A stretch of DNA of 64,000 nucleotides from Halomicrobium zhouii (lineage in GTDB: Archaea > Halobacteriota > Halobacteria > Halobacteriales > Haloarculaceae), in assembly GCF_900114435.1 (NCBI RefSeq), contig NZ_FOZK01000005.1:186001-250000 (forward strand), written 5' to 3'. Both the position numbers and the translations under genes were made by a program. Positions 47,733-64,000 of this stretch are shown one piece after another; positions within the stretch are counted from its first letter, which is position 1, and every line of letters begins with the position of its first letter. Under the pieces are notes generated by a model. That model ran no database searches and was not told the origin of the DNA. It saw only the letters and a program-made list of their open reading frames with translations.

Positions 47733-50700
47733 CTAGTCGTCCGCCGCCGTCGGGTCGTCCGCTGTGGTCGGGTCGGGCCCGTCGACGTCAGTCGACGCTG
47801 ATCCAGTCGCGTCCGCGCCGTCGCCGCTGACCTCGAACTCGTCGACCAGCTCCTCCAGGTCGTCGGCGAGGCCGGCGACCGACTGGACGTTCTCGGTGAC
47901 GCCGGTGAGCGAACTCGTCTGTTCCTCGGAGGCGGCCGAGACGTTGCTGGCCTCGGCGGCCGTCTCCTCGCTGACGGTGCTGACCTCGTCGACCATCGCC
48001 ACGATCTCCTCGGTGGAGGCGGCCTGGTCGTCGGTGGCGTCGCTGATCTCCTGGACGCCGACCTCGGCCTCGTCGACGGCCTCGGCGACCTCGTCGAACA
48101 TGTCGATGGACTCCTCGATAGTGGCGGCCCCGCGCTGGACCCGGTCGCGCATCCCCTGGATGTCGTCGACGGTGTCGCCGGTCGTGGACTGGATTTCGGT
48201 GATGAGGGTCTCGACCTCCTCGGTCGCCTCGCCGGCCTCCTTGGCCAGGGACTTGATCTCGTCGGCGACGACGGCGAACCCTTCGCCGGCCTCGCCGGCG
48301 CGGGCGGCCTCGATGGAGGCGTTGAGCGCGAGCATGTTCGTCTGCTCGGCGATGCCGGTGATCATCCCGACGATGTCGCTGATCTCGTCCATCTCGTCCC
48401 GCAGGTCCGCGACCTGCTCGACCGCGTCGTCGGCCTCGTCCTCGATCTCCTCGATCTCCGCCGAGGCCTCGGCGGCCTGCTCGCTGCCGCGTTCGGCGCG
48501 GGCGGCCGCCTCCTGGGCGGTGTTGGCGACGTCGACGGAGGAGGAGGCGATCTCCTCGATGGTCGCGGACATGTCGTTCATCTCGCTGGCGACCTCCTGG
48601 AGGTTCTCGGACTGGGTGTCGGAGCCGTTGGAGATCTCCTGGACGGACTGGGCGACCTCCTGGCTCGCGGCCTCGATCTCGGTCGCGCTGGCGGCGACCT
48701 CGTTGCTCGCGCTGTTCACTTCCCGGGCGATGTCCTGCACGCGAGCGATGCTCTCGTCGACCGCGTCCAGGCCCTCGTCGATGTTCGCCACGACCTCGCC
48801 GTACGCGCCGGGGAGGTCGGCGTCGAGGTCCTGGTCCAGCTTGCCCTCGCGCATGTCCGTACTCACGCGCTGGAGCTGGTCGAAGCTGTCCGAGAGCTGC
48901 TGGAGGCCGCCGTCGAGTTCGGACATCACCTCGCCGTAGTCGCCAGGCAGGTCGGTGTCGAGTTCCTGGTCCAGGTCGCCCGCGCTGACGTTCTTGCTCG
49001 CGCGGCTGATCTCCTCGAAGCTCGCGCCGAGCTGGGTCATGCCGGCCTCGAGACCCTCCATGATCTCCCCGAACTTCCCGGGCAGGTCGGTCTCGACGTC
49101 GTCGTCCAGCGTCCCCTCGCTCAGGGACTCGCTCACGGCCTCGATCTGGTCGACCTGTCGATTGAGGTTCGTCTGCATGGCCTCGAAGGCGTCGACCATC
49201 TCGCCGATCTCGTCGTCGGGCGCGTCGATGGTCTCGGTCTGGTCGAACTGGCCGCGGGACATCGCCGTCGCGCGGTCACGGATCTGCTCGATGGGCCGCG
49301 AGATGTACCTCGCCGCGGCGTAGCCGGTCACACCGACCACGAGCGCCGAGACGACGAACAGGCCCAGGATGAAGTTCCGCGCCGAATCGGTCGTGCCCTG
49401 GAGCGCCGCGCCCAGCGCCGCGATCGGTTCGTTGACGTCCGATTCGGGGACGGTCGCCACGAGCGTGAACTGCTTCATCCCCAGGTCCAGCGGCGCGAAC
49501 CCGACGTACTGGGTCGCGTTCTCCTCGCCCTCGACCTGCTTCGTGTACGTCGCCATCCCCGACTCGCCTTCGAGCATCCGGCTCTGGGCTATCTCGCCCA
49601 GTTCGGCGCCGTACTCGCCCTCGGCGACGTTCGTCCGCTGTTCGATCGTCGCTCGCTCGGGGTGGCTGACCGTCCGGCCCTGGTCGTCCAGGACGTAGAG
49701 GTAGCCGGTCTCGCCGACCGTCACCCGGTTCGTGGTCTCGGTGATGATCGAGTAGTTGAACTCGGCGGCCACGACGCCCTCGAAGGTGCCGTTGTGGTAC
49801 ACCGGCGTCGCCACGTGCATCTGTTCGTGGCCGTTCTCCGTGCGAATCTCGCCGAAGTGGCTCTCTCCCCGGTCGCCGCTTTTCGCCATCTCGAACCAGT
49901 CCTCGTCGGCGTAGGTCCGCGAGTCGTCGGCCCCCGTGGTGACGTCGCCGCCGGACCGCTCCGCGTGGAGAATCTCCGACCCCTCGGCGTCGACGAACGT
50001 GATCGCCTCGTAGGCGGTGCGCTCGTTGTCGCCGACCGTCACCGTCCGCGTCTCGAGGTAGCGCTCGAAGGAGTTCTCCATCTCGCTCTCGGCGTCGTCG
50101 ACGGCGGTCTGCTGGAGTTCGTGGTAGTAGACGCTCGGGGCGATTATCCAGTCGAAGGGCTCGTAGTAGGTGTAGGCGATGAACTTCGTCATCTCCGGGT
50201 TCCCCTCCTGGGTCGTGTCCTCCCACTCGTACTCGGCGATGCCCCAGTCCTCGCCGTTCCGGACCGCCTCGTCGGACTGGACGTGCGCCTTGATGTCCTC
50301 GAAGACGACCAGCGTCCCGCCGCTGTCCTCCTTGAGGTTGTGGCCCTCGTCGAGACTGTGATGGACGACGACGTTCGACTCCAGGTCGGTGATGTAGGCG
50401 TACCCCGTCTCACCGACGTAGCCCGGCTGGAACGTGTCGGCCATGGTCCCGCTGGACTGAACGCCCGTGCCTGCAGTGCCGCCGATCATCGCCTCGACGT
50501 CCCGCTCGACCTGTCGTTGCTCGGACGGCGAGAGCTGGTTCCACGAACGCCCGTCGTACTCCTTCTCCAGGACCATCTGCGTGGCACTGTCGATGCCGGT
50601 GTTCATCTGCAGCGATATGTGTCCCAGCTGGGCCTGACTCGACTCCTGGACCAGTGCCATCTCTCCGTTCTGGGCGGCGAGGTAGTTCTCCATCGTCGAG

Positions 50701-50942
50701 GACTCCGACAGCGACCTGACGTCGACCTCGCGCTGGTTGAGCTGGTTCTGGATCCCTTCCTGTCGCGCCTCGACGCTGTTGTTGAGCTGGTCCGTCATCT
50801 CGCCGCGCAGGTAGTCGCCGCTCTGGGCCTGTGCGTTCTGGTTGAGCTGTCCCATGCTGTTCGCCGAGAGGAGTCCGACGCCGGACAGCGGTACCAGCGA
50901 TATCGTCAACAACAGAACGATCAACTTGACCTGCAGATTCAT
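47733..50942 (-). CDS. Methyl-accepting chemotaxis protein with tandem HAMP domains
   Basis: A 1069-residue transducer. N-terminal membrane helix (residues about 4-25), a long extracellular double-Cache region with two modules (the first around [14 protein letters not shown], the second around [14 protein letters not shown]...[18 protein letters not shown]), a second membrane helix near 510-530, HAMP 1 after it ([18 protein letters not shown]), then at least three more HAMP-like repeats with the shared [19 protein letters not shown] pattern, then the signalling domain with the conserved tip [20 protein letters not shown] and [15 protein letters not shown]. The acidic C-terminal tail is disordered. 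The ligand is unknown. ATG 50942 preferred over a TTG at 50957; a TATA-like GTTAAATAGC precedes it. Confidence 0.94.
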
Positions 50943-51370
50943 ACACGTCGTCGTCAATACCGCTATTTAACCGCTTGTGGCGGATTCTTCCTTCCGATAA
51001 CTGGAGCGGGAATTCAGTCCGATTTGCGGCCGATTCTCTGCGAGGAGTTCGCATACCGACTCGCGCACACGAGCGGACGTGAAACAGGTTCGACACCGGC
51101 CGTGGTTCAGGCACCACGCGAGCACCACCCTCGCGGCAATTCGCCACCACGAGCAACTTCTGACCTCCTGACCACGACAAATAGGGGATACAACGTTAGG
51201 ATCGTCTATAAACAGTCTAATCAGTTCTGGGGCGGTGAAAAAACTCGAACGATCGTGGGTAAAAGGTGAGTATCGGGTGTATAGTTCCCCGAAACGAAGC
51301 GAATTATCGCCAATGGTCGACCTATTATATGGGGTATTCGTGCCAAGGAGTGAGTGAGGAGAGAGCACCA
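50943..51370. promoter_or_regulatory. Divergent intergenic region between the chemoreceptor and a small membrane protein
   Basis: About 430 bp, lower in GC than its neighbours. It contains the minus-strand TATA-like GTTAAATAGC (about 50966-50975) for the chemoreceptor, a plus-strand TATA-like CTATTATATGG (51322-51332) for the gene at 51371, and an additional TCTATAAACA (51205-51214) not assigned to a gene. A purine-rich GAGGAGAGAG stands 6-8 nt before ATG 51371. No RNA or additional gene was recognised. Confidence 0.5.
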
Positions 51371-51619
51371 ATGTCCATCGCGTCCCCATTCGGCTTCGAC
51401 CGATCCGCCTCCACCGTCGACGTACAGACCCTCCGAACGATCGCCCTGCGCCCCATCGAGACGGTCGCCTTCTGGGCCGCCGTCCTCATCCCGCTCGTCT
51501 ACCCCGCGCTGATGTACGGTGGACTCGACGGGCAGGAGCTCTTCTTCCTCCTGGGTGCCCTCGCGCTCAACGCGGCCGCGCTGTTCCTCGGCCGCGACTA
51601 CAATCGCGACCAGGCCTGA
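51371..51619 (+). CDS. Small two-helix membrane protein, hypothetical
   Basis: An 82-residue protein with a soluble 30-residue N-terminus (SIASPFGFDRSASTVDVQ), a hydrophobic helix ETVAFWAAVLIPLVYPALMY, a short loop GGLDGQE, and a second helix LFFLLGALALNAAALFLG followed by RDYNRDQA. A Shine-Dalgarno-like GGAGAG stands about 10 nt before ATG 51371. Unknown function. Divergent from the chemoreceptor. Confidence 0.7.
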   Translation: MSIASPFGFDRSASTVDVQTLRTIALRPIETVAFWAAVLIPLVYPALMYGGLDGQELFFLLGALALNAAALFLGRDYNRDQA

Positions 51620-51817
51620 ACGCGGTCGAACTGGCAGTCCGGAACCTGGTGGCTCCCAGGCCACCGCGGACCGCCCCTCCACGGTCCGACTCCTGACGTC
51701 CCCGCCCTCCTCCGGGTCGTCCCTCCACGGCCCGGCCCTCCACGCTCCACCTCTCCACGCCGTTTTCGAACACCCTCCTCCGAACCTTCAAGTACGAACA
51801 CGGGACCAGCCCGGGCC

Positions 51818-52558
51818 ATGCACGACGGAATCCGCGTGATGGCCGGCGACTGTACGACCGTCTTCGAGGGACCCCGCGAGCGCGAGCAACGCGGCGACGT
51901 GCTCGTAGTCGTCAAACCGGACAACACCGTCCTGGTCCACGACGTCGACGGGTACCAGCCCGTGGCGTGGCTCACACGGGCCGACAGCGTCGCCATCGAG
52001 GACGGCGCCGTCACCGCCCGTGACGGCGACGAACTGCTCCGGGTCGTCACCCACGAGGAACACGGGAGCGCGCGCTATCCCGCCTCCAGCGCGGGCGTCC
52101 CGGTCGGCGACTGTCCCGACTGTACCGGCACGCTCGTCCGCTCGAGCGGCGGCGTCACCTGTTCCGGCTGTGACGCCCGGTACGGGCTCCCCTCGGACGC
52201 CACCGTCACCGGCAGTCGCTGTGACGAGTGCGGACTCCCGACGCTCCGGGCCGAGCGCGGGCGCGCCTTCGAGGTGTGTCTCGACCGGGACTGCGAGTCC
52301 CTCGACGAACGCGTCAAGGCGGCCTTCGACCGGGAGTGGGACTGCCCTGCCTGCGACGGCGACCTCCGGGTCCTCCGGACGGGCGGCCTGCTGGTCGGCT
52401 GTGAGCACTACCCCGACTGCGACACCGGCTTCTCGCTCCCCGCCGGCGTCGTCGTCGGGGAGTGCGACTGCGGCCTCCCCGTGTTCGAGACGGCCAGCGG
52501 GCGGCGCTGTCTGGACGCGGCCTGCGAGGGCGAGACGGCCTCCGCGGCCGACGCCTAA
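51818..52558 (+). CDS. DUF91 (NucS N-terminal) domain fused to topoisomerase-type zinc ribbons
   Basis: A 246-residue protein. Residues 1-90 match the N-terminal dimerisation/DNA-binding domain of NucS-type endonucleases (GDVLVVVKPDNTVLVHDVDGY, QPVAWLTRADSV). The RecB-like nuclease half that follows in NucS is missing; instead there are several CxxC zinc-finger pairs: CPDCTGT...CSGC, CDEC, CPACDGD...CEHYPDCDTGF and CDCG. The CPACDGD/CEHYPDCDTGF block is the C-terminal topoisomerase I C4 zinc-finger type. It probably binds single-stranded or branched DNA without cutting it. The endA gene follows 38 bp later. Confidence 0.8.
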   Translation: MHDGIRVMAGDCTTVFEGPREREQRGDVLVVVKPDNTVLVHDVDGYQPVAWLTRADSVAIEDGAVTARDGDELLRVVTHEEHGSARYPASSAGVPVGDCPDCTGTLVRSSGGVTCSGCDARYGLPSDATVTGSRCDECGLPTLRAERGRAFEVCLDRDCESLDERVKAAFDREWDCPACDGDLRVLRTGGLLVGCEHYPDCDTGFSLPAGVVVGECDCGLPVFETASGRRCLDAACEGETASAADA

Positions 52559-52596
52559 ACACAGGGGCTTTGGTCCCGCGGTGGCAGGGTCGAGGT

Positions 52597-53664
52597 ATGA
52601 ACGCGACGCTCGCGGGGGACGTGGTCCGGGCCGGCAAGCAGGCCCGGGAGCGGTTCTACGACGCCCGCGGCTACGGCCGGCCGGTCGACGGCGGCGCCCT
52701 CGAACTCGCCCCCGTCGAGGCGGCCCACCTGCTGTACCGGGGGGACCTCGACGACGTCGACGGGATGGACGTCGGGGAGTTCCTGGCCTCCGCCGCCGTC
52801 TCCGAGGTGGCCTTCTTCGTCTACAAGGACCTGCGGGACCGGGGATTCTACCTGTCGAGGCCGGCGCCGACCGACGGGAGGGGCCGGCAACAGGTGAGCG
52901 GGGAGGAACGACCCGCGAACCGCGAGGCCGGCGACGACCGCCCGGTCGATTTCGAGGTGTACCCGCGCGGGAAGGGGCCGTGGGACGACGAGGTGGCCTA
53001 CCGCGTCTGCGTCGTCAGCGAGCGCGAGTCGGTCGCCGCGGAGTCGCTCGGTGACTGCGTCCTCGCCGTCGTCGACGAGGAGAGCGAGATAACGTACCTG
53101 GAGACCGGTCGTCCCGAGGTGTCGGGGACCAGCGCGAGCGAGATTCCGCCGGTGGAGGGCAGCCTGCTCGCCGACCGCGTGCTGTGCTGGGATCCGCCCG
53201 CCGAACTGTACGAACGCGGGTTCTACGGCCAGCGGCTGGACGACCAGGACGACGGCGACGGCGCGGTCCAGCTATCGCTCGTGGAGGCCGCACACCTCGC
53301 ACGTGAGGGCGTCCTCTCGGTCGACGGCGGCGCCGACGCGGTCCGCGAGCGCGGCCGCGACGTCGAGGGCGACCGGTTCGACCGCCGCCTGCGCGTGTAC
53401 GAGCGCCTGCGCGCCGACGGGATGGTCCCCAAGACCGGCTTCAAGTTCGGCGCCGACTTCCGGACCTACGCCGACGTCGAGTCCGTCGACGATCTGGGCC
53501 ACTCGGAACTGCTGGTCCGGGTGCTGCCCGCCGACCACGTCTTCGAACCGCGCGACCTGGCGCTGGACGTCCGACTCGCCCACGGCGTCCGGAAGACGAT
53601 GGTGTTCGCGCTGGTCGACGAGGAAGACGTGTCGTGGGTCGACGTCGAGCGACTGACGCCGTAG
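52597..53664 (+). CDS. endA: tRNA-intron endonuclease (two-domain form)
   Basis: A 355-residue splicing endonuclease that cuts introns from pre-tRNA at bulge-helix-bulge motifs. Two similar halves are visible: each contains a ...LELAPVEAAHLLYRGD-like / QLSLVEAAHLAREG segment, the haloarchaeal two-domain arrangement. The C-terminal half contains the catalytic residues: Tyr in GADFRTYADV, His in GHSELLVRV and Lys in HGVRKTMVFAL. ATG 52597 selected; an upstream frame to 52462 overlaps the preceding gene and is not plausible. Confidence 0.95.
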   Translation: MNATLAGDVVRAGKQARERFYDARGYGRPVDGGALELAPVEAAHLLYRGDLDDVDGMDVGEFLASAAVSEVAFFVYKDLRDRGFYLSRPAPTDGRGRQQVSGEERPANREAGDDRPVDFEVYPRGKGPWDDEVAYRVCVVSERESVAAESLGDCVLAVVDEESEITYLETGRPEVSGTSASEIPPVEGSLLADRVLCWDPPAELYERGFYGQRLDDQDDGDGAVQLSLVEAAHLAREGVLSVDGGADAVRERGRDVEGDRFDRRLRVYERLRADGMVPKTGFKFGADFRTYADVESVDDLGHSELLVRVLPADHVFEPRDLALDVRLAHGVRKTMVFALVDEEDVSWVDVERLTP

Positions 53665-53670
53665 CGGGTG

Positions 53671-53690
53671 GCAAAACGAACGCTTTTTGC
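53671..53690. terminator. Possible terminator hairpin after endA
   Basis: GCAAAA (53671-53676) and TTTTGC (53685-53690) form a stem of 6 bp with an 8-nt loop and a run of five T residues in the right part. It lies between the endA stop and the trpS start. Weak evidence only. Confidence 0.4.
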
Positions 53691-53718
53691 GCGTGTCGGT
53701 TCGAATATCGCCTAATTG

Positions 53719-55326
53719 ATGACACGTGACGACTCCGACCGGGACGACCCCGGGTCCGAACCCGTAACCGATGGAGGCACCGAGGCGGCGGGGGCCGACG
53801 ACGTCGCGCTGGACCCGTGGGGCTCCTCGACGGTGTCGGACTACCGGAAGCTGTTCGCCGAGTTCGGCATCGAGGAGTTCGACGAGATACTCGAGGAGGT
53901 CCCGAACCCCCACTACCTGATGCGCCGCGGCGTCATCTTCGGCCACCGCGACTACCGCCCGGTCGCGAAGGCGATGCGCGAGGGCGAAGAGTTCGCCGCA
54001 CTCTCCGGGTTCATGCCCACCGGCGACCCCCACATCGGCCACAAGCTGGTCTTCGACGAGATCATCTGGCACCAGCAGCAGGGTGGGGACGCCTACGCGC
54101 TGATCGCCGACCTGGAAGCCCACAGCGCCCGCGGCCTCAGCTGGGACGAGATCGACGAGCACTCGCGGAACTACCTGCTGAGCCTGCTCGCGCTCGGTTT
54201 CGACCCCGACGAGGGCGAGCTGTACCGCCAGTCCGACAACCGCGAGGTCCAGGACCTGGCGTTCGAACTCGGCGCCGAGGCGAACTTCTCCGAGATGGGC
54301 GCCATCTACGACTTCGACGGCGAGACCGACATCTCGCACATGCAGAGCGTCGTCACGCAGATGGCCGACATCCTCTATCCGCAACTCGAGGAACCCAAGC
54401 CGACGGTCATCCCGGTCGGCCCGGACCAGGACCCCCACATGCGTCTGGCCCGTGATCTGGCCTCGCGGATGCGGTTCTTCGGCGTCACGCGCGCCTACGC
54501 CGGCTTCGGGCTGGAGGACGAGGAGCGCGTGATCCTCGACGACCTCTACGCCGACCTCACGGACGAACCCACCGACGCAGGCGAGGACGCTGACCCCCTG
54601 CGCTGCGAGGACGCCGCCGAGGCGCTCCGAGAGTCCCGAGACCGGTACGAGTCGCCGGGCTGCGACCCCGCCACCGTCGACGCGCTCGCGGAGAAACTCG
54701 AAAACGCCGGGAAGGAACCGCTCCGGCCGCGGACCCGGTTCCTCGACCGTAACGCCACCGAAGAGGCGTTCGAGGCGCTCATCGACGCCGTCGAGGGCGA
54801 GAAGCGCGTCTACGACGAACACGTCGACTCCTTCGAACTTTCCCGCGAGGCGGCCGAAGAACTGGCCCGCGAGGTCGAACTCGACCACGGCGGCTACGGC
54901 TTCCTCCCGCCGTCGTCTATCTACCACCGGTTCATGACCGGATTGACTGGCGGGAAGATGTCCTCCTCGATTCCGGCCTCCCACATCAGCTTGCTCGACG
55001 ACCCCGAAGACGGCTACGACAAGGTCAAGTCAGCGACGACGGGCGGCCGGGCCACCGCGGAGGAACAGCGCGAGAAGGGCGGGAAGGCCGACGAGTGCCC
55101 GGTGTACGAACTGTACGCCTACCTGCTGGCCGGCGACGACGACGAGTTCGCCAAGGAGGTGTACGACGAGTGCGTCGGCGGCGAGCGCCTCTGTGGTGGG
55201 TGCAAGGAGCAGGCGGCCGAACTGATGGAGGCGTTCCTCGAGGACCACCAGGAGAAGCGCGCGGAGTGGGAGGAAAAGATCGACGAGCTGGACATCGACC
55301 TCGACTCCGACCGCAAACGGCAGTGA
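53719..55326 (+). CDS. trpS: Tryptophan--tRNA ligase
   Basis: Class I synthetase for tRNA-Trp, 535 residues; the long acidic N-terminal extension and insertion regions are usual in haloarchaea. HIGH motif as GDPHIGHK (in GFMPTGDPHIGHKLVF) and KMSKS motif as GGKMSSSIPAS near residue 412. Other signatures are VIPVGPDQDPHMRLARDL and AYAGFGLEDEE. ATG 53719 is used; the TTG three bases before it is less likely. Confidence 0.96.
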   Translation: MTRDDSDRDDPGSEPVTDGGTEAAGADDVALDPWGSSTVSDYRKLFAEFGIEEFDEILEEVPNPHYLMRRGVIFGHRDYRPVAKAMREGEEFAALSGFMPTGDPHIGHKLVFDEIIWHQQQGGDAYALIADLEAHSARGLSWDEIDEHSRNYLLSLLALGFDPDEGELYRQSDNREVQDLAFELGAEANFSEMGAIYDFDGETDISHMQSVVTQMADILYPQLEEPKPTVIPVGPDQDPHMRLARDLASRMRFFGVTRAYAGFGLEDEERVILDDLYADLTDEPTDAGEDADPLRCEDAAEALRESRDRYESPGCDPATVDALAEKLENAGKEPLRPRTRFLDRNATEEAFEALIDAVEGEKRVYDEHVDSFELSREAAEELAREVELDHGGYGFLPPSSIYHRFMTGLTGGKMSSSIPASHISLLDDPEDGYDKVKSATTGGRATAEEQREKGGKADECPVYELYAYLLAGDDDEFAKEVYDECVGGERLCGGCKEQAAELMEAFLEDHQEKRAEWEEKIDELDIDLDSDRKRQ

Positions 55327-55363
55327 CCTCGCGACGGGTCCGACTTACGCTGCCGACAGTCGC

Positions 55364-55921
55364 TTACTGACCGGCGTTGCCTGAATTCGATGTCGACTGG
55401 GTAGCGCCGTCCGACTTCGACCGATCACGCCCGCTCTCACCGCGGTTGGGCTTGCCAGTGCAGACGACGGTGACGTTGCGCTCCAGTTCGACGCTGCTCC
55501 CACCCGCGGTCGTCGCCGTGATTCGGATCCTGACCCGGTCGCTTCCGGGCGGATTGGCCCCGCAGGTCACGCTGGCCGTGACGGCGACGGACTCCCCGAT
55601 ACCGACCGGCGTCGGCGGTGGCTGGACGCCGTGGCCGGTGAGCCGGGGCGGTGACGGGTGCCCCGCCGAACGCACCGACGCGTCGACGTCGACGATGGCC
55701 GCCGGGAACCGGTTGGTGATCGTCAGCAGGGTGACGTCCCTGTGGTTGCCGTTCGGTAGCTCAGGCGCCGCCGACTCCACCGTCAGCAGGGCGCTGTCGT
55801 CGGCGCCGGAGGCGATCTGGACGGTTCGCTCGCTCGCCGCGGTCGTGAACCCGCCGCTGCTCGTCACGAGGACCAGCGAGACGGCGAGCGCGAGCACCGC
55901 GACCGGTCGGTGTCGGTTCAT
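55364..55921 (-). CDS. Secreted TasA/DUF1102-like protein, divergent third member
   Basis: A 185-residue exported protein: signal region MNRHRPVAVLALAVSLVLV, then SSGGFTTAASERTVQIASG followed by ADDSALLTV. The same order of residues is seen in the proteins at 56909 (GTGAFTSVTASRDV...DASAYLRL) and 57496 (GTGAFSSVGASRDV...DASAYLGI), so it appears to be a distant relative. The beta-rich core contains a single CGAN and a VVCTG, so two cysteines; the Ser/Asn-rich tail is disordered. It overlaps the regulator gene upstream by 4 nt (ATGA) and so belongs to its operon. Confidence 0.75.
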   Translation of the reverse strand: MNRHRPVAVLALAVSLVLVTSSGGFTTAASERTVQIASGADDSALLTVESAAPELPNGNHRDVTLLTITNRFPAAIVDVDASVRSAGHPSPPRLTGHGVQPPPTPVGIGESVAVTASVTCGANPPGSDRVRIRITATTAGGSSVELERNVTVVCTGKPNRGESGRDRSKSDGATQSTSNSGNAGQ

Positions 55922-56508
55922 CCGTCTAGCTCGGCGGGCCGGTCGGTCGACCCCAGCCGCATCTCGGTGCGGTTGTAGTACGTGTGGACGATGGACGCGA
56001 CGAGGACCGTCGTCGTCGCGAACGCGCCCCAGGCGATGTCCGGGAACGCCGTCAGGGGGGCGAGGTCCGCGCCCGCGGCCGCGAGCAGTGCGACGTTGAG
56101 GACGCTCAGCCCGAGGTAGAACTGGCTCCAGGGGACGTCGGCGCCGGTGACGACCTCCATGTACACGTCGAGGTCGTCCGACGCGGGCCCCAGTCGGACC
56201 GTTCCCTCGCGGTCGTCGAACTCGACGACCCCCAGGTCGTCCATGCGCGGCAGGTGAACCTGCTGGAGCGAGGTGTACACCCGTTTCCGGTCGGCCGAGG
56301 AAACCTCGCTGAGGCTCACCTCGTTCTCCCACGCGGCGACGACCTCGGCGAGTTCACCCAGCTCCGCGCGCTGGTCGCGCTCGTGGAGATAGTAGAGGAC
56401 GTATCGTCTGCGATGGTTACTCAGCAGGTCGAACCCCTGGTCGTGCGAGACGCCCTCAGACCCGCTCTCGATCCCTATCGAACCCGATGGCTGTACTGAT
56501 TTACTCAT
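55918..56508 (-). CDS. DUF7344 winged-helix regulator with two membrane helices
   Basis: A 196-residue protein. The HTH part has FDLLSNHRRRYVLYYLHERD, then ADRKRVYTSLQQVHLPRMDDLGVVEFDD (compare the DUF7344 regulator at 11972-12331). Two hydrophobic helices follow (LYLGLSVLNVALLAAAGADL-type and AFATTTVLVASIVHTYY), so it is a membrane-tethered regulator. It is divergent from the TasA-like operon and co-transcribed with the secreted protein downstream. An inverted repeat (56526-56545) lies between its TATA box and start, suggesting autoregulation. ATG 56508 used. Confidence 0.8.
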   Translation of the reverse strand: MSKSVQPSGSIGIESGSEGVSHDQGFDLLSNHRRRYVLYYLHERDQRAELGELAEVVAAWENEVSLSEVSSADRKRVYTSLQQVHLPRMDDLGVVEFDDREGTVRLGPASDDLDVYMEVVTGADVPWSQFYLGLSVLNVALLAAAGADLAPLTAFPDIAWGAFATTTVLVASIVHTYYNRTEMRLGSTDRPAELDG

Positions 56509-56525
56509 GACCACCCCTCACCAAA

Positions 56526-56551
56526 TTACAGTATAGATCCTGTAAATATAA
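56526..56551 (-). promoter_or_regulatory. Inverted repeat and TATA box of the DUF7344-membrane regulator
   Basis: TTACAG (56526-56531) and CTGTAA (56540-56545) are exact inverses around 8 nt, next to a TATA-like CTTATATTTAC on the minus strand (56541-56551). The ATG is at 56508. Located between TATA and the start, so it would be well placed to bind a repressor, possibly the regulator itself. Confidence 0.6.
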
Positions 56552-56908
56552 GTTGGGGGGTTAGTACGAAAAACGCCACTCGCTGGGGCTGCTGACAGCC
56601 GTCGGGCCGAGTCGGACGCTGGAACTGGTCCGCGATGGTGACAGACTGGACGGAGAGCCACCAGTTCGCTGGGACGACTCTCCCTGCGGTCCGTTCTGGC
56701 ACGTCCTTCGGCCGCTTCAGGCCGGGTGATACGCCCTGGCGCGCCGGTTCAGACCGACCGATACGATCGGGCCGTTTCGTTCCGGCGGCTCGATACAATG
56801 GGGTGTGGGGTCGTCGACGAAAGTGCACACTCACCCGCGAACCGAATCGCGGACGGCCCGCGTCAGTACGGGCCAGGGGGGTGTGGTCGAAATCAGGTGT
56901 GAGTACCA
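56552..56908. promoter_or_regulatory. Long leader/regulatory region of the TasA-like operon
   Basis: About 360 bp without a gene. It contains three imperfect copies spaced exactly 32 bp apart, each of the form TTC-x2-(A/G)-CCG-x3-GATAC: ending in GATAC at 56728, 56760 and 56792. The last GATACAATG could be the core promoter, leaving a leader of about 90-110 nt before ATG 56909. No small gene was recognised. Confidence 0.5.
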
Positions 56909-57481
56909 ATGCAACGACGCAAATTCGTGATAGGTGTGGGATCGCTCGCCGCCGGCTCGGCGGCTGCAATGGGGACTGGCGCGTTCACGAGCGTGACGGC
57001 CAGTCGGGACGTCGACGTGGAAGTCGCCTCGGACGCCTCCGCGTACCTCCGGCTCGAGGGGGCCGGCGGGCCGAACGCTCCGTACGTCACCGACGACGGG
57101 AGTTCCGGCACGCTGGGCATCACCCTCGATCCGAGCAACAGCACCGCGGCCGGCGGTGAAGGCGTGAACCCGGACGCGCTCACGCGCATCGACGACCTGT
57201 TCGTCGTCGAGAACCAGGGGACCCAGTCGGTCGACGTCTCCATCGCCAAGTCCGGTGACAACAGCGGGCTGGTCTGCTTCTTCGCCAACGACGCCCAGGG
57301 CGCCAGCGATCCGTACGACGAGAGCAACGGATCGACGGCCCGGATCGACGGCTCCGGCAACGACGTGACGCTGGACCCCGGCGAGAGCGTCTACGTCAGC
57401 CTCCAGGTCGACACGCGCGGTGAGGGCGTCGGCGACGGCGACGAACTGCTCGACACCGTCGTCGTCGAGGCGGTGGCCTGA
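56909..57481 (+). CDS. TasA/camelysin-like secreted protein (DUF1102 type), copy 1
   Basis: A 190-residue exported protein. N-terminus MQRRKFVIGVGSLAAGSAAA resembles a Tat-like/SipW-type signal, ending GTGAFTSV-TASRDV. The mature part is beta-rich and Asp/Gly/Ser-rich: SDASAYLRLEG, FVVENQGTQSVDVSI, LDPGESVYVSLQV. These features match DUF1102/TasA-like proteins, which in Bacillus (TasA) and in an archaeal pilus (AbpA) assemble into fibres by strand donation; assembly here is inferred. One Cys only. Followed by a paralogue after 14 bp. Confidence 0.8.
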   Translation: MQRRKFVIGVGSLAAGSAAAMGTGAFTSVTASRDVDVEVASDASAYLRLEGAGGPNAPYVTDDGSSGTLGITLDPSNSTAAGGEGVNPDALTRIDDLFVVENQGTQSVDVSIAKSGDNSGLVCFFANDAQGASDPYDESNGSTARIDGSGNDVTLDPGESVYVSLQVDTRGEGVGDGDELLDTVVVEAVA

Positions 57482-57495
57482 CGGGGTGACCAGAG

Positions 57496-58041
57496 ATGGA
57501 ACGACGCAAATTCGTGCTGAGTCTCGGCGCGCTCGCCGGCGGTAGCGCAGCGGTCGGGACCGGCGCGTTCAGTTCGGTCGGTGCGAGTCGTGACGTGACC
57601 ATCGACGTCGCGGGCGACGCGAGCGCGTACCTGGGCATCCAGCCCCACGACGGGCCGAACGGCCAGTACGCCGACACGACGAGTAGCGACGCCCTCGCGC
57701 TCGACTTCTCGGGCAGCAACTCGAATATCGGCGACGGCATCGCCGGCGGCGAGGGCGTCAACGCGAACGCGCTGACGACGTTCGCGAACGTCTTCACGGT
57801 CGAGAACCAGGGGACCCAGGACGTCGACCTGACGGTGACGCCGCTGGCGTTCATCGAGACGGACGGGGCCCCGTTCCCGACGTCGCTGCTGCTGGTCGCC
57901 ATCGTCCCGGCGGCACTGTCGATAACACTCGGTCCGGGCGAGTCCCAGGACTACCACGTGGTCGCGCTGTCGCTGGAGTCCGACGGTGAACCGGACGTGA
58001 GCCTGCAAGACGAGATGCAGATTACCGCGGAGGAGGCCTGA
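57496..58041 (+). CDS. TasA/camelysin-like secreted protein (DUF1102 type), copy 2
   Basis: A 181-residue paralogue of the preceding gene: MERRKFVLSLGALAGGSAAV, GTGAFSSVGASRDVTI, GDASAYLGIQ, FTVENQGTQDVDLTV and LGPGESQDYHVVAL. It differs in a more hydrophobic middle (SLLLVAIVPAALSI), which could be a partner-contacting strand region or a membrane-associated helix. Separated from copy 1 by 14 bp and from the next small gene by 2 bp, so the three form one transcript. Confidence 0.8.
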   Translation: MERRKFVLSLGALAGGSAAVGTGAFSSVGASRDVTIDVAGDASAYLGIQPHDGPNGQYADTTSSDALALDFSGSNSNIGDGIAGGEGVNANALTTFANVFTVENQGTQDVDLTVTPLAFIETDGAPFPTSLLLVAIVPAALSITLGPGESQDYHVVALSLESDGEPDVSLQDEMQITAEEA

Positions 58042-58043
58042 CC

Positions 58044-58178
58044 ATGAGTTCCGATTCACCCACGGTCGACGACTACTTCGAGGCATCGGACGAGTACGAC
58101 CACGACGACAAGTCGGAGATTCCCGCGGAGAAGCTGGCGGAACTCGAGGCGGAGATCTCGGCGCTCCAGTCGGACTGA
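58044..58178 (+). CDS. 44-residue acidic small protein
   Basis: Reads MSSDSPTVDDYFEASDEYDH, then DDKSEIPAEKLAELEAEISA, LQSD. It starts 2 bp after the TasA-like copy 2 stop and is in perfect haloarchaeal codon style. The C-terminal half is a short amphipathic helix or coiled coil (heptad-like LAELEAEISAL). No signal peptide, so probably cytoplasmic. Its position between the filament-like genes and the signal peptidase suggests a chaperone or regulatory role, but nothing is known. Confidence 0.7.
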   Translation: MSSDSPTVDDYFEASDEYDHDDKSEIPAEKLAELEAEISALQSD

Positions 58179-58211
58179 CCTGGCTGGCCGCCCGGTCCGG
58201 TCCGTCGTGAT

Positions 58212-58242
58212 CTCTCTCCTTTATTTCACCACTACTTATTTA
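58212..58242 (+). promoter_or_regulatory. T-rich terminator-like stretch and signal peptidase promoter
   Basis: A pyrimidine-rich run TCTCTCCTTTATTTC (58212-58226) follows the small gene and could end the upstream transcript. CTTATTTAGC (58235-58244) then stands 25-32 nt before ATG 58267, the right place for a TATA box. The signal peptidase and DUF5305 genes would thus form a second transcript. Confidence 0.5.
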
Positions 58243-58266
58243 GCATCTTGAGCGCAAGGGCGCTGT

Positions 58267-59412
58267 ATGGGTGGTGAACGGGGGTTCGGGGTCGCCGTAG
58301 AGGTCGCTGCCGTCGTCCTGCTCGGCGCGATGGTCGCCGGGCAGGCGCTCGGCCAGCCGATACTGTTGAGTTACGTCACGACCGGGAGCATGGAGCCGAC
58401 GCTGGAACCTGGTGACGGGTTCGTCGCCATCCCGGCGGCCGTCGCCGGGCCAGTCGAGACGGGCGACGTGGTGGTGTTCCGTGCCGAACAGCTGCACGGC
58501 GGCGGGCTCACGACCCACCGCGTCGTCGAGGAGACAGACCGGGGCTACGTGACGAGGGGTGACGCGAACCCCTTCACCGACCAGGACGGCGACGAGCCAC
58601 CGGTGAAGGACGAACAGGTCGTCGCGGTCGCCTGGCGGCCGGGCGGCGACGTGCTCGTCCTGCCGGGACTGGGAACCGCGGTCACCGGGGCGCGCTCGGT
58701 CCTTGACACCGGCCAGCGCCACGTCGCCGGGGCGCTGGGGACCCGCGCGGTGCTCGGGCCGCAGGGACTGGCCTACCTCCTCTTCGGGACGACGGTCGGG
58801 TACTACCTCGTGAGCGCCTGGCGGGCCGACGGCGCCGAGCGCGAGCGCACTCGCACGCGCGAGACGCCGACGGACCCCCGGCTCTACGCCGCGGCCTTCA
58901 CCGCGCTGGTGGTCCTGGCGGCGACGGCCGCGATGGTCGTTCCCGCCGGCCCCCAGCAGTTCGGCGTCGTCAGCGCCGAGTCCGACTCGCCGGGCCCGCG
59001 CGTCGTCGAACAGGGGACCAGCGAGTCCGTCGACTATCCGGTCGGCAACGGCGGGTTCGTCCCCGTCGTCGCGTACTTCGACTCGCGGAGCGACCGGGCG
59101 ACCGTCGAACCGACGTCGGTCGCCGTCCCCGCGCGCCAGTCCCGGAGCGTGTCGGTGACTCTCTCCGCGCCGCCGGCGACGGGCTACTACCGCCACTACC
59201 TCGTCGAACACCGCTACCTCGCGGTGCTCCCCCGACCACTCATCGACGCGCTCTACGGGGTCCATCCCTGGCTCCCGATACTGGCGATCGACGCGCTGCT
59301 GGCCGGGCCGTTCTACCTGCTGAACAGGCGGCTGCTCGGCACCGGACGCGTTCGGTCCCGGTCGCGCGGCCGTGACCCGGTGCGAAGCACGCTGCTGGGG
59401 CTGGAACGATGA
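58267..59412 (+). CDS. ER/SipW-type signal peptidase I with extracellular beta domain
   Basis: A 381-residue membrane protease. Catalytic Ser41 lies in VTTGSMEPTLEPGD and His84 in GGGLTTHRVVE, with Asp99 in YVTRGDANP; no Lys general base, so it is of the Ser-His-Asp archaeal/SipW class. N-terminal helix 9-29, then the protease domain, helix near 175-190, helix near 208-228, an extracellular Ig-like beta domain (240-330), and a last helix near 345-360. The extra beta domain makes it longer than ordinary archaeal enzymes (about 200-300 residues). It presumably processes the TasA-like precursors. Overlaps the next gene by 4 nt. Confidence 0.88.
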   Translation: MGGERGFGVAVEVAAVVLLGAMVAGQALGQPILLSYVTTGSMEPTLEPGDGFVAIPAAVAGPVETGDVVVFRAEQLHGGGLTTHRVVEETDRGYVTRGDANPFTDQDGDEPPVKDEQVVAVAWRPGGDVLVLPGLGTAVTGARSVLDTGQRHVAGALGTRAVLGPQGLAYLLFGTTVGYYLVSAWRADGAERERTRTRETPTDPRLYAAAFTALVVLAATAAMVVPAGPQQFGVVSAESDSPGPRVVEQGTSESVDYPVGNGGFVPVVAYFDSRSDRATVEPTSVAVPARQSRSVSVTLSAPPATGYYRHYLVEHRYLAVLPRPLIDALYGVHPWLPILAIDALLAGPFYLLNRRLLGTGRVRSRSRGRDPVRSTLLGLER

Positions 59413-61184
59413 CGGGGAGCGACGACGCCGCGACGGCGCCGCGCCTGGACCCGACGGAGCGCCGACTCCGCCGATTCAGGATACTCGTCGACGACAACCT
59501 CGCACTCGTGGTGACCGTGCTCGTTCTCGTCGCACTCCTGGGGGGCTACGTCACGTACGCGACCCACGTCGCGCCAGGGACGACGACGGAGACCCGCGAG
59601 GTTTCGGACTGGGAGTCCTCGGGCGAGTTCTCCCACCGGGCGACCGTCGTCAACGGCACCGACGCCTTCGAGCGCGGGGCCGTCCTCCGGAACCGGTCGG
59701 TGTACTTCCAGCGGGTCGCGCCGACGCTCGACGGCCGGTTCGCCTACGAGTACGCGGCCAGCGACGGCGGGTCACTGACGGTGACCGTCGAGACGGTGGC
59801 CGTCATCCGCTCCGTGTCGGCGTTCGAGGGGGACCGGAGGGCCGAGCACTGGCGCGTCGAAGAGCCACTGAACCGCGACCGGGTCGACTCGGTCGCGCCG
59901 GGCGAGCGCGTCACCGTCCCGTTCTCGGTCAACGTCTCCGCCGTCTCCGAGCGGGCCCGCCGGATCGAACGCCAGCTGGGCGCCAGCCCGGGCCAGACGG
60001 AGGTCACCGTCACCTCGCGCGTGACGGTCTCGGGCACCCGCAACGGCCAGTCCGTCGAGGAGACGCGGCGCTACCACCTCCCCATCGAACCCGGCGTCGG
60101 CGTCTACCACGTCGAGGAGCCGGATCCGGACGCGCTCACCGACGACGGGGGGACGCCCGAGCAGGTCTCGGTCCAGCGATCCTACGGGCCGGTCCGTGAA
60201 CTCGGTGCGCCGCTGCTGTTCGTGGCCGGCGTCGGTGGACTCGCTGCCATCGCCGTCGGCCGGCGCCGCGACGCGCTCGCGGTGAGCCAGACAGACCGTG
60301 AGCGCCTGGCCGCCGCGGCGACCCGGGAGCAGTTCGACGACTGGATCACGCGCGCACGCGTCCCGGCCACTGCCCGCGTGGACCCACCGGTTCCGGTCGA
60401 CTCGCTCGAAGGGCTCGTCGACGTTGCCATCGACACGGACGCGCGCGTCGTCGAGGACCGGGACCGGGGCGAGTTCGTCGTCCTCGGCGACGCCGTCACG
60501 TACGTCTATCGGCCGGCGAACCCGCGAATCGGTGGCGTCGGCACAACTGATCTCGACCCTCTCTCGTATTCGGACGAGTCGCCGTCGTCAGGCGGCCTCA
60601 CCAGCGCCGAGGTGACGACGGACGTTCGCGAGAACGGTGAGACGACGGCTCCGTCGGGGAACGGAACCGAGCACTCCTCGTCGGGGACTGGAGCGACCCC
60701 GGACGAACCTGAAAGCGGTGCTCCGGCGAACCCCGCTCCGGACGACGGGGTGTCCGAGGGACCGATAGCCGGCGAGTACGGAACTGGTCCGCCGACGGAC
60801 CTGATACCGGCGGACCGGGCGACTGGCGCGGAGGTAGATCCGTCGCCGGACACAGACGCGCCGAACACTGATGCGCCGGACACCGACGCGCTGGACACCG
60901 ATGCGCCGGACACCGACGCGCCGAACACTGATGCGCCGGACACCGATGCGTCGGACACAGACGCGCCGGACCCGTCCCCCGACGATTCGCCGTCTGCACA
61001 GTCCGCCGATGGGGCGGCGTCGGACCGGTCGACGGCGGCGGCCGACGGCACCCTCGAGACGGTGCCGGTCCCGAGCCTGGCCGTCGACGACCACCCGGCG
61101 ATCTATCACGAGAACGACGGCGCGGACGCCGACGGGTGGCCCGACGACCGGAACCTCGCCAGGCGGTCGCCGTCGGACGACTGA
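59409..61184 (+). CDS. DUF5305-like membrane protein with pentapeptide-repeat tail
   Basis: A 591-residue protein: cytoplasmic N-terminus, helix LALVVTVLVLVALLGGYVTY (residues 31-50), a large extracellular beta-rich region (about 55-260) with SHRATVVNGTDAFERG and SYGPVRELGAP, a second helix LLFVAGVGGLAAIAVG (about 270-287), and a long cytoplasmic C-terminal part. The tail contains about eight copies of a (D/N)TDA(P/L/S)-x pentapeptide, encoded by a 15-bp repeat. It starts in the stop codon of the signal peptidase gene (4-nt overlap), so the two work together. Such proteins often occur beside SipW-like peptidases in haloarchaea. Confidence 0.82.
   Translation: MTGSDDAATAPRLDPTERRLRRFRILVDDNLALVVTVLVLVALLGGYVTYATHVAPGTTTETREVSDWESSGEFSHRATVVNGTDAFERGAVLRNRSVYFQRVAPTLDGRFAYEYAASDGGSLTVTVETVAVIRSVSAFEGDRRAEHWRVEEPLNRDRVDSVAPGERVTVPFSVNVSAVSERARRIERQLGASPGQTEVTVTSRVTVSGTRNGQSVEETRRYHLPIEPGVGVYHVEEPDPDALTDDGGTPEQVSVQRSYGPVRELGAPLLFVAGVGGLAAIAVGRRRDALAVSQTDRERLAAAATREQFDDWITRARVPATARVDPPVPVDSLEGLVDVAIDTDARVVEDRDRGEFVVLGDAVTYVYRPANPRIGGVGTTDLDPLSYSDESPSSGGLTSAEVTTDVRENGETTAPSGNGTEHSSSGTGATPDEPESGAPANPAPDDGVSEGPIAGEYGTGPPTDLIPADRATGAEVDPSPDTDAPNTDAPDTDALDTDAPDTDAPNTDAPDTDASDTDAPDPSPDDSPSAQSADGAASDRSTAAADGTLETVPVPSLAVDDHPAIYHENDGADADGWPDDRNLARRSPSDD
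60846..60965 (+). repeat. 15-bp tandem repeat in the DUF5305-like gene
   Basis: Eight copies of a 15-bp unit such as CCGGACACCGACGCG, encoding PDTDA or PNTDA. A two-unit block (CCGAACACTGATGCG plus the next unit) occurs twice, 60 bp apart, so there is also a higher-order repeat. Confidence 0.88.
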
Positions 61185-61603
61185 TAGTGGTGGTTGTATC
61201 GTTTTACCGGCGTTCGACGTGGCCGGTGCCGGCGAACGCTTCGGCGTGCTCCGCAACGCTTTTCTCGCCCTGTGCGTACGTTTCGCACATGGCATCCGAA
61301 CCCCCGTTCGGTCGATCCGTGCGCCAGCCGCCGCAGCGCCCGGGGTTCGGCTTCTTCTTCGTCGCCCGTTGACGGGTGGTGGACTTCGGGGCTGGCCGAA
61401 ACGCGACTCCGAACGAAACCACTCGAAGGCGAGCGCGAACGACCGTGGCGTCTCCGGCCCGCAGACGAGCGGACCCACCGTCTGGCTCACGTGCCGTCCC
61501 GCTCCGTTCGCCATCGAGCCGGCACCTCCCTGCGGTCGGTGGCGCCCAATTGAGAACCGTTAACTGACGAACCACCGGTACAACAGACAACGACCACTAT
61601 CGC
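61185..61603. promoter_or_regulatory. 419-bp gap before pheS
   Basis: Begins right after the DUF5305 stop with TAGTGGTGGTTGTA (61185-61198); the near-inverse ACAACGACCACTA sits at 61587-61599, just before pheS, so the two enclose the gap. Inside are the Phe-rich ORF (61289-61372), a GCGTTCG...CGAACGC stem (about 61213-61241) and a TATA-like CCGTTAACTG (61555-61564) about 40-50 nt before the pheS ATG. A minus-strand frame (61204-61290, starting MCETYAQGEKS) is open but its reality is unclear. Confidence 0.5.
61289..61372 (+). CDS. Candidate Phe-rich leader peptide upstream of pheS
   Basis: A 27-residue ORF: MASEPPFGRSVRQPPQRPG then FGFFFVAR and stop. Four of its five Phe residues (residues 20, 22, 23 and 24, all TTC) cluster near the end, 230 bp before the pheS start. 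A Phe-rich leader in front of Phe-tRNA synthetase genes is known in enteric bacteria, where it controls attenuation (E. coli pheM). In an archaeon the mechanism would have to differ. No ribosome-binding site is obvious and the ATG shares CATG with a minus-strand ORF, so confidence is modest. Confidence 0.4.
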   Translation: MASEPPFGRSVRQPPQRPGFGFFFVAR

Positions 61604-63115
61604 ATGAAGCTACCACAGGCACAGGCGGCGGTCCTCCGGGCCGCCGACGCGGACGAGGACAGGCGCATCGACGAGGTGGCCGCCGAGGCCGACCTCAAAC
61701 CGGAGACGGCCACGCGGGCCGCCTTCGAACTCGAAGACCAGGGGCTCCTCACCGTCTCCGAGGAGACGGTCGAGTCCGTCGAACTGACCGAGGAGGGCGA
61801 CCGGTACGTCGACGAGAGCCTCCCCGAGCAGGACCTCTACACTGCGGCCGTCGACGCCGGCGCCGACGAGGGGCCGGTGTCGATGGGCGAGGCCATCGGC
61901 GCCTCGGGGCTCGAGGGCGCGGCCGTCGATATCGCGCTGTCGAACTACGCCCGCAAGGGGTACGGACAGATCGACAGCGGGGAGATAACGGCCGACCCCG
62001 AGGCGGCGCCCGGCGAGGACTCCGAGATGTTCACGCTGGAAGCCGTCGCGGACGGGCGTCCGGACGACGCCGACGCGGACGCGCTCGACCAGCTGGAGCG
62101 GCGCGGCCTGGTCGAACGCACCGAGACGACGGTCCGGTCGGTCCGGCTGACCGACGAGGGCGTGACCGAACTGATGGCCGGCGTCGAGGTGGCCGAGACC
62201 GTCGGCGAGGTGACGCCGGAACTGCTGACCAGCGGCGAGTGGGAAGGTGTCGAGTTCGCCGAGTACAACGTCGAGGCCGACGCCGGGGAGGTCCGGGGCG
62301 GCAAGGAGCACATCCTCCGCCAGACGGCCAACCGCGTCAAGGACGTCCTCGTCGGGATGGGCTTCCAGGAGATGGAGGGTCCCCACGCCGACGCGCAGTT
62401 CTGGATCAACGACTGCCTGTTCATGCCCCAGGACCACCCCGCGCGGACCCACTGGGACCAGTTTGCCCTCTCGAACCCCGAGGAGATCGACCACCTGCCC
62501 GAGGACCTGGTCGAGCGCGTGAAGTCGGCCCACCTGGAGGGCGTCGGCCCGGACGGCGAGGGCTACCACTCGCCGTGGGACGAGGACGTCGCCCGCGGCA
62601 TCGACCTCCGGGGGCACACCACCTCGCTCTCGATGCGCTACCTCTCCGGCCACCAGACCGGTGAGTTAGAGCCACCGCAGCGCTTCTTCAGCGTCGAGAA
62701 GGTGTACCGCAACGACACGCTCGACCCGACGCACCTCCTGGAGTTCTTCCAGATCGAGGGGTGGGTGCTGGCCGAGGACCTCTCGGTCCGTGACCTGATG
62801 GGCACGTTCACGGAGTTCTACGAGCAGTTCGGCATCACCGACCTGGAGTTCAAGCCCCACTACAACCCCTACACGGAGCCGAGCTTCGAGCTGTTCGGCA
62901 CCCACCCCGAGACGGACGAGATCGTCGAGGTCGGCAACTCGGGGATCTTCCGGCCCGAGGTGCTCGAACCGCTGGGCGTCGACGCCGACGTGATGGCCTG
63001 GGGGCTCTCGCTTGAGCGCCTGCTCATGCTCATGTACGGCTTCGAGGACATCCGCGACGTCCACGGGACGCTGGCCGACCTCGAACTCCTGCGGGAGACG
63101 GAGGTGGTGTACTGA
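61604..63115 (+). CDS. pheS: Phenylalanine--tRNA ligase, alpha subunit
   Basis: Class II synthetase alpha subunit, 503 residues. The N-terminal half contains winged-helix-like tRNA-binding domains (QAAVLRAADADEDRRI; VDIALSNYARKGYGQI). Catalytic core: motif 1/2 region GFQEMEGPHADAQFWINDCL, DHPARTHWDQFALSNP, FFSVEKVYRNDTLDPTHLLEF and motif 3 MAWGLSLERLLMLMYGFED. Its stop overlaps the pheT start (TGATG), so the alpha and beta subunits are coupled. Confidence 0.97.
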   Translation: MKLPQAQAAVLRAADADEDRRIDEVAAEADLKPETATRAAFELEDQGLLTVSEETVESVELTEEGDRYVDESLPEQDLYTAAVDAGADEGPVSMGEAIGASGLEGAAVDIALSNYARKGYGQIDSGEITADPEAAPGEDSEMFTLEAVADGRPDDADADALDQLERRGLVERTETTVRSVRLTDEGVTELMAGVEVAETVGEVTPELLTSGEWEGVEFAEYNVEADAGEVRGGKEHILRQTANRVKDVLVGMGFQEMEGPHADAQFWINDCLFMPQDHPARTHWDQFALSNPEEIDHLPEDLVERVKSAHLEGVGPDGEGYHSPWDEDVARGIDLRGHTTSLSMRYLSGHQTGELEPPQRFFSVEKVYRNDTLDPTHLLEFFQIEGWVLAEDLSVRDLMGTFTEFYEQFGITDLEFKPHYNPYTEPSFELFGTHPETDEIVEVGNSGIFRPEVLEPLGVDADVMAWGLSLERLLMLMYGFEDIRDVHGTLADLELLRETEVVY

Positions 63116-64000
63116 TGCCTGTCGTCGACGTCGACCCCGACGAGCTCCGACGGCTGACGGGTCACGACGAGAAGGACGACGACGAACTCCGTTCGGACCT
63201 GTTCAACCTCGGTCTGGAGTTCGAGGGCTGGACCGAGGACGACGAGTTCCAGCTCGAATTCGCCCCCGACAGACTCGACCGGCTCTCCGTCGAGGGCGTC
63301 GCCCGGTCGCTGCGCTACCAGTACGGCGACGACCGCGGGGTGTACACGCCCGACACGAACGCCGCGGAGTGGGTCGTCGAAGTCGAGGACACGCCGCCGG
63401 AGCGACCCTACGTCACGGCCGCCGTCGTCCGCGGGCTGGACATGGACGACGAGGCGCTGGACTCCATCATCCAGCTCCAGGAGAAACTCCACGCGACGAT
63501 GGGCCGCCAGCGCGCCAAGGGCGCCATCGGCGTCCACGACCTGACGATGCTGAAAGGCAAGTCCGGCGTCGACGAGGTCGGGAAGTCCGTCACCTACACC
63601 GGCATCGACCCCGAGGGCGACACGTTCGTTCCCCTCGAAGGCGACCAGGAGATGACGCCCGCCGACGTGGTCGAGGGCCACCACATCGGCAAGGAGTACG
63701 CCGACCTCGTCGACGAGATGGACCGAGTGCCGGCCATCTACGACGCCATCGGCCTGTTCTCGTTCCCGCCGGTGGTCAACGGCCGCCGGACCGAGGTCTC
63801 GACGGGCTCTCGCGACCTGTTCATCGAGATGACCGGGACGGACCAGTGGACCATCGACCACATGCTCAACATCGTCTGCTACGCGCTCGACGCCCGCGGC
63901 GGGCAGGTCGAGGAGGTCCGCATCGAGTACTCGGCCGACGCGCCTGGTGAGTACTCGGGCCAGCAGTTCGTCCGCCCCGACCTCGCCACGAAGACCAAGA
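63115..64000 (+). CDS. pheT: Phenylalanine--tRNA ligase, beta subunit (partial, runs off the window)
   Basis: Starts ATG 63115 inside the pheS stop. About 295 codons are visible, with PVVDVDPDELRRLTGHDEKD, the B1-type fold with EFAPDRLDRLSVEGVARSLR, and the region HDLTMLKGKSGV. The remaining half with the B5/B6 and tRNA-binding domains lies outside. Forms the alpha2-beta2 enzyme with PheS. Confidence 0.95.
   Translation, partial: MPVVDVDPDELRRLTGHDEKDDDELRSDLFNLGLEFEGWTEDDEFQLEFAPDRLDRLSVEGVARSLRYQYGDDRGVYTPDTNAAEWVVEVEDTPPERPYVTAAVVRGLDMDDEALDSIIQLQEKLHATMGRQRAKGAIGVHDLTMLKGKSGVDEVGKSVTYTGIDPEGDTFVPLEGDQEMTPADVVEGHHIGKEYADLVDEMDRVPAIYDAIGLFSFPPVVNGRRTEVSTGSRDLFIEMTGTDQWTIDHMLNIVCYALDARGGQVEEVRIEYSADAPGEYSGQQFVRPDLATKTK

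Follow-up and report, generated by a model that had tools for sequence, protein, structure and literature searches.

Haloarchaeal Tat-fimbriae (tafi) are thin surface fibers, and TafA/C/E/F are fimbrial proteins. Tafi, with TafA as a core component, were reportedly described by Galeva et al. 2025 (iScience 28:111793), as cited in PMC12687288. PDB entry 9p0a, released on 2025-07-23, carries the title "Structure of Natrinema sp. J7-2 Tafi pilus" in the Foldseek table. With the publication in 2025 and the structure released in July 2025, this is a known kind of cluster. The loci with TafA/C/E/F of the NCBIfam type presumably belong to Haloarcula. As regards other described fibers, the donor strand of Bacillus TasA is N-terminal (PMC9674648), and the thread subunit of Sulfolobus has been reported to be Sec-exported (PMC9715654).

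The window, that is, the whole stretch of 64,000 nucleotides of Halomicrobium zhouii DNA analyzed here, contains a cluster for which the original prediction proposed a TasA/SipW-like surface-fiber system. The locus is a tafi cluster and not of the TasA/SipW type; it is real, conserved, functional-looking, and compact in form. For the complete reading, in which Tat-exported pilins and their dedicated peptidase give a donor-strand filament and the TafC-like, DUF5305, HTH, and 44-aa proteins have roles of their own, we estimate a probability of about 0.88.

Gene Content of the Locus

Seven intact ORFs are located at 55364–61184 of the window, flanked by trpS (53716–55326) and pheS (61604–63115). 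The features are the following (the intergenic region and the TATA-like elements are putative, as read from the sequence):

55364–55921, reverse strand: TafC-like secreted beta protein of 185 aa (partial TafC match, E 9e-14)
55918–56514, reverse strand: membrane-bound HTH regulator, DUF7344 (PF24035, 109 bits)
56515–56908, no strand: putative divergent intergenic region
56552–56543, reverse strand: putative TATA-like element CTTATATTTA, assigned to the HTH gene
56909–57481, forward strand: pilin 1 (P0003), TafE/DUF1102-type (9p0a match, TafE 71 bits, model fold)
57496–58041, forward strand: pilin 2 (P0004), TafE-type, with twin-arginine signal and GTGAF site (TafE 60.5 bits)
58044–58178, forward strand: acidic 44-aa protein (position and weak family similarity)
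58235–58243, forward strand: putative TATA-like box CTTATTTAG, its center 28 nt upstream of the peptidase start
58267–59412, forward strand: long-form archaeal signal peptidase, carrying more TM helices and an additional beta domain on the outer side (TIGR02228, over cut-off)
59409–61184, forward strand: DUF5305 protein with two TM helices, an outer Ig-like beta domain, and an acidic cytosolic tail (PF17231, 197 bits)

All the genes named at the outset, i.e., those of three secreted proteins, the peptidase, and the DUF5305-like, 44-residue, and HTH proteins, are thus intact and in their expected places. The tight packing was also confirmed, with ATGA overlaps between the HTH and TafC-like genes and between the peptidase and DUF5305 genes, and a gap of 2 nt ahead of the 44-aa ORF. 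The HTH gene has an alternative ATG start at 56508. Its description as a membrane-tethered regulator agrees with the DUF7344 match and with two hydrophobic helices, read from the sequence, at the C-terminus of the protein. The Rfam search of 50000–64000 returned no match, and the scan for sigma-70 promoters and bacterial terminators was uninformative, as expected for an archaeon.

Pilin Family, Signals, and Fold

P0003 exceeds the Pfam cut-off for DUF1102 (32 bits against 22.2). P0004, which is 43% identical to P0003, scores 17.6 bits, and the protein of 55364–55921 has no Pfam match to DUF1102. Consequently, of the three secreted proteins first taken as DUF1102-type, P0003 keeps this assignment, P0004 carries it more weakly, and the third one matches a part of TafC instead.

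Both pilins carry the twin-arginine signal RRKFV, and the predicted cut of P0003 is GTGA^FTSV, between residues 25 and 26. In an alignment of 66 pilin sequences, R3, R4, G22, G24, A25, F26, A31, and R33 show little or no variation, R3 and R4 being conserved in at least 90% of the sequences. Among 103 relatives examined, 100 have the RR within the first 14 residues.

The solved J7-2 pilus links these proteins directly to a known fiber. In the sequence search of solved structures, P0003 alone matches 9p0a at E 2e-12, and the profile of the 66 pilins gives one strong solved structure, the 9p0a "Pilin," at E 3e-31. A gene 100% identical over the 185 printed residues of this pilin was found in genome G135. 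Its cluster (L218) has DUF5305, the peptidase, a Taf protein of ~400 aa, and the pilin on one strand, and the HTH and TafC-like genes on the other, a layout which matches that of the window. The same layout is found in L219 and L220, whose pilins are 93% and 74% identical to that of 9p0a. The entry has 215 residues deposited and 188 in the Foldseek chain, a difference which would fit a mature start at the conserved Phe after GTGA.

None of the Taf proteins of the window reaches the NCBIfam equivalog cut-offs for TafA/C/E/F: the TafE scores are 71 (P0003) and 60.5 (P0004) against a cut-off of 155, the TafC score is 51 against 410, and the TafA score 41 against 190. Even the solved J7-2 pilin reaches only 73.5 bits with the TafE model, against the same cut-off of 155. 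The Taf equivalog cut-offs (NF052520–NF052523) are narrow, so that most tafi loci will escape annotation. The proteins of the window are therefore filed as tafi-type and not as orthologs of the model-defining proteins. The locus shares with tafi the RR signals, the neighborhood of HTH, peptidase, DUF5305, and TafC-like genes, and a subunit whose homologue is an established tafi pilin.

The AlphaFold2 model of P0003, built on the 66-sequence alignment, is a beta sandwich with a mean pLDDT of 74 and values <50 in the signal region and N-terminus. The nearest solved folds in Foldseek are self-complemented FimA variants, the Pyrobaculum bundling pili (7ueg), the Sulfolobus threads (7pnb), and 9p0a, with E values of 3e-4 to 8e-3 and probabilities of 0.99–1.0; the TM-scores are only 0.33–0.43, so that the model supports the fold class only. 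The sandwich is Ig-like, of the FimA/AbpA/0406 kind in Foldseek; the fold comparison proposed with the original prediction thus favors a donor-strand pilin fold. The residues of the N-terminal strand are conserved in the pilins; the model is single-chain and of low confidence at this end.

Type IV pili were considered as a different assignment and rejected: there is no match to type IV pilin families in Pfam or NCBIfam, the signal combines RR with GxGAF, and the peptidase is of type I.

The secreted proteins could instead be soluble or cell-surface proteins that share only fold and neighborhood with tafi pilins and do not polymerize here. The filament of H. zhouii is a prediction, the confidence of the P0003 model is modest, and one of the two paralogous pilins could be non-polymerizing. 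Against this, the N-terminal strand and the cleavage motif of the solved-pilus family are intact in the window. Its genes, too, are intact, with counterparts of 90–98% identity in the sister species. The non-polymerizing alternative is considered very improbable, and fiber formation in H. zhouii is predicted.

Distinction from TasA/SipW Systems

A matrix-fiber operon of the TasA/SipW type, with a SipW-like peptidase, TasA-like fibers, and a TapA-like helper, shares one principle with the window, the pairing of secreted proteins of beta-sandwich fold with an adjoining ER-type signal peptidase. The peptidase of the window gives a weak match to the SipW model (30 bits), and AbpA, which is a TasA-like pilin, is similar to the P0003 model in fold. 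The pilins, on the other hand, have no match to camelysin/TasA or to the SipW-cognate signal (PF12389/Peptidase_M73, TIGR04088). When compared by profile with the TasA-like protein of the same genome (P0009), they align in the signal peptides only. P0003 moreover matches 9p0a directly.

In addition, this genome has a better candidate for a TasA/SipW operon outside the window. It is located at G000:C1:1291667-1294402 (L221:3668-6403, reverse strand) and is the actual TasA/SipW-like system. Two camelysin/TasA-family proteins, P0008 and P0009, are over the Pfam cut-off and carry twin-arginine and SipW-cognate signals; they precede the peptidase P0010, whose score against the SipW model is 113 bits. 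The operon also includes one more membrane protein. Membership of the window peptidase in the SipW family was rejected, its 30 bits standing against the 113 of P0010 and a curated cut-off of 190.

The assignment of the secreted proteins to the TasA family is accordingly abandoned, and a TasA/SipW operon in the window is highly unlikely. The broader proposal of a surface filament with its own enzyme and regulator is supported, P0003 being a homologue of a solved pilus subunit whose gene cluster is laid out in the same way.

Candidate Processing Enzyme and Membrane Components

The peptidase is an archaeal signal peptidase I (TIGR02228, 53 bits, over cut-off), with SEC11A/C as its match in the PDB (E 1e-5); four signal-peptidase matches were found in the H. 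zhouii genome. Among 24 aligned relatives, S41, H84, D99, and D105 are invariant, and so are N261, R316, Y317, and P334 of the extra outer domain. Of the earlier description as an ER/SipW-type Ser-His-Asp peptidase with an outer domain, the catalytic residues and the conserved domain were upheld and the SipW relationship, at only 30 bits, was not. Profile comparison showed no relation of the outer domain to the pilins (probability 9%), nor of the peptidase to DUF5305 (0.7%). A TapA-like chaperone role for the outer domain therefore remains a guess.

When coordinates were compared in 15 genomes, 16 of the 17 long-form peptidases lay within ~10 kb of a DUF5305 gene. Three genomes picked for the absence of DUF5305 have other peptidase forms only.

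The DUF5305 protein, correctly anticipated as a two-helix membrane protein (PF17231), has an AlphaFold model of high confidence (pLDDT 93.9), in which two long, membrane-length helices frame the outer beta domain. The fold search with this model gave generic Ig-like matches, none of them specific, and the sequence had no match among PDB sequences. Tandem TDAP(N/D) repeats are found in the acidic tail at ~60850–60960. The open frame differs in length between the window and the sister strain HArc-gm2 (602 and 577 codons, respectively).

The TafC-like protein has a GGFT cleavage motif without RR, and the mean hydropathy of its h-region is 2.1 compared with 1.4–1.7 for the two pilins; with this more hydrophobic core, its export is probably by Sec. 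In most relatives, a homologue of this protein adjoins the HTH gene. Among the TafC-like proteins by the HTH gene (loci L116, L121, L122, L131, L168, and 55364–55921 of the window), two signal types were observed, a Tat-like one with RR (e.g., in Halorubrum) and a more hydrophobic one, mostly without RR.

Distribution of the Cluster in Halobacteria

In 145 genomes of the order searched for DUF5305 and TafE-like genes, 93 genomes have DUF5305 and 89 have TafE-like genes; both are present in 86, only one in 10, and neither in 49. Of the 96 genomes with at least one of the two, 86 thus have the pair. Canonical TafA/TafC/TafE loci over the NCBIfam cut-offs are found in 8–11 genomes, and these share the HTH and peptidase genes of the window and mostly DUF5305 too.

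The peptidase profile alone, run on 84,980 species genomes, retrieved 80 loci, 57 of them with full flanks. Within these 57, DUF5305 is present in 54, the HTH gene in 51, and Taf-like genes in 56. DUF5305 directly follows the peptidase in 48 cases, and 49 loci show the opposite-strand HTH gene together with upstream Taf genes. These counts indicate that the order of the window is the common haloarchaeal order; it is also seen in Haloarcula, Halorubrum, Natrinema, Halobacterium, and Haloquadratum. The same genes are kept together across the order, and the gene set is therefore not a chance collection. The conserved neighborhood suggested for this locus was in this way strongly borne out.

A congener (L238, G262:C1:1882000-1896000) has the cluster at the same trpS–pheS site without DUF5305, a point against the tafi reading. 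The only DUF5305 gene of this genome is at a second cluster (G262:C1:765095-765739), and a single DUF5305 gene was found in each of the seven congeneric genomes searched. Placed in this way and in single copy, DUF5305 may serve more than one fiber.

Microprotein and Pilin Phylogeny

In ten other clusters, an acidic ORF of 41–44 aa begins 2–8 nt after the second short pilin. These ORFs belong to a small acidic family of 40–44 aa, mostly with P[TNS][LV] and then Y near the start, which matches no known family (loci: the window, L104, L128, L131, L137, L139, L153, L158, L160, L163, L170, and L238). The HMM of the family misses the 44-aa protein of the window at E values up to 1, and similarity to the window copy is weak beyond the sister strain. 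The 40-aa ORF of L238 fits the family HMM at E 3e-12 and the window protein at E 0.001 (small search). Since L238 alone bridges the family and the window protein, the latter is probably a divergent member. Its position directly after the second pilin and its probable membership in this family are new details.

The phylogenies of the pilins and the peptidase do not agree, which is likewise a new detail. The window's pilin 1 falls together with the pilin 1 proteins of Natrialbaceae and Haloarchaeobius (98% SH-aLRT, 55–66% identity), and the best pilin matches within the window's own family have 31–49% identity and are mostly partial. The peptidase groups inside Haloarculaceae (99%), and a single clade of microprotein-bearing peptidases was rejected (AU p 2e-36). 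This conflict suggests, as its simplest reading, exchange of the pilin module, the alternative being ancient paralogy with loss.

With module exchange as the starting point, a resident chassis of HTH, peptidase, and DUF5305 genes may be combined with exchangeable pilin modules. Pilin 1, pilin 2, and the microprotein could form one such module common to Haloarculaceae, Natrialbaceae, and Haloarchaeobius, the microprotein being a new factor dedicated to it in the cytoplasm, such as a helper of Tat export or folding. This extended proposal is tentative, and we consider it somewhat less likely to be right than wrong. If the exchange is real, the exposed fiber is replaced and its machinery retained, a pattern to be expected of a structure that viruses or partners put under pressure, and the microprotein would offer a concrete target of study.

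Proposed Assembly Model

On the basis of their RR signals, the two short pilins would fold in the cytoplasm and exit by the Tat route. The long signal peptidase would then cut at GxGA^F and free an N-terminal strand that starts with Phe. As the fold and the solved homologue suggest, this strand may fill the open beta sandwich of the next subunit, by which a donor-strand filament would grow. The TafC-like protein, with its probable Sec-like export, would likely serve as base, tip, or adaptor, and the DUF5305 protein as platform or anchor in the membrane. The divergent operon would be regulated by the membrane-bound DUF7344 HTH protein. The 44-aa protein is probably a cytoplasmic helper of pilin 2 that acts ahead of export; this is the weakest step of the model.

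The locus ties the DUF5305, DUF7344 HTH, long signal peptidase, and DUF1102 genes, mostly annotated as of unknown function, to one surface fiber. It also sets tafi apart from the TasA/SipW systems, the two coexisting in one genome.

Comparison with Known Systems

The Bacillus TasA/SipW/TapA system resembles the window in having a dedicated ER-type signal peptidase that adjoins the fiber subunit. The window differs from it in the subunit family, the peptidase subfamily, and the lack of TapA. The bundling pili of Pyrobaculum calidifontis (AbpA, 7ueg) and the Sulfolobus threads (7pnb) have the donor-strand pilin fold in common with the window, according to Foldseek. They belong to different lineages, and they gave no sequence match in the search of solved structures.

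The closer relatives are found among tafi. Those of the Haloarcula type have TafE- and TafC-like proteins, the HTH gene, and the long signal peptidase, with DUF5305 nearby, and the genomes over the cut-offs are mostly of the same taxonomic family as the window. In contrast to them, the window has no TafA or TafF over cut-off, and its TafC-like protein has half the length and no RR. The tafi of Natrinema J7-2 share with the window a homologous pilin, the twin-arginine signal, the GTGAF site, and the layout of the cluster. The difference lies in the second gene, which encodes a Taf protein of ~400 aa in Natrinema, whereas the window has a second short pilin and the 44-aa protein.
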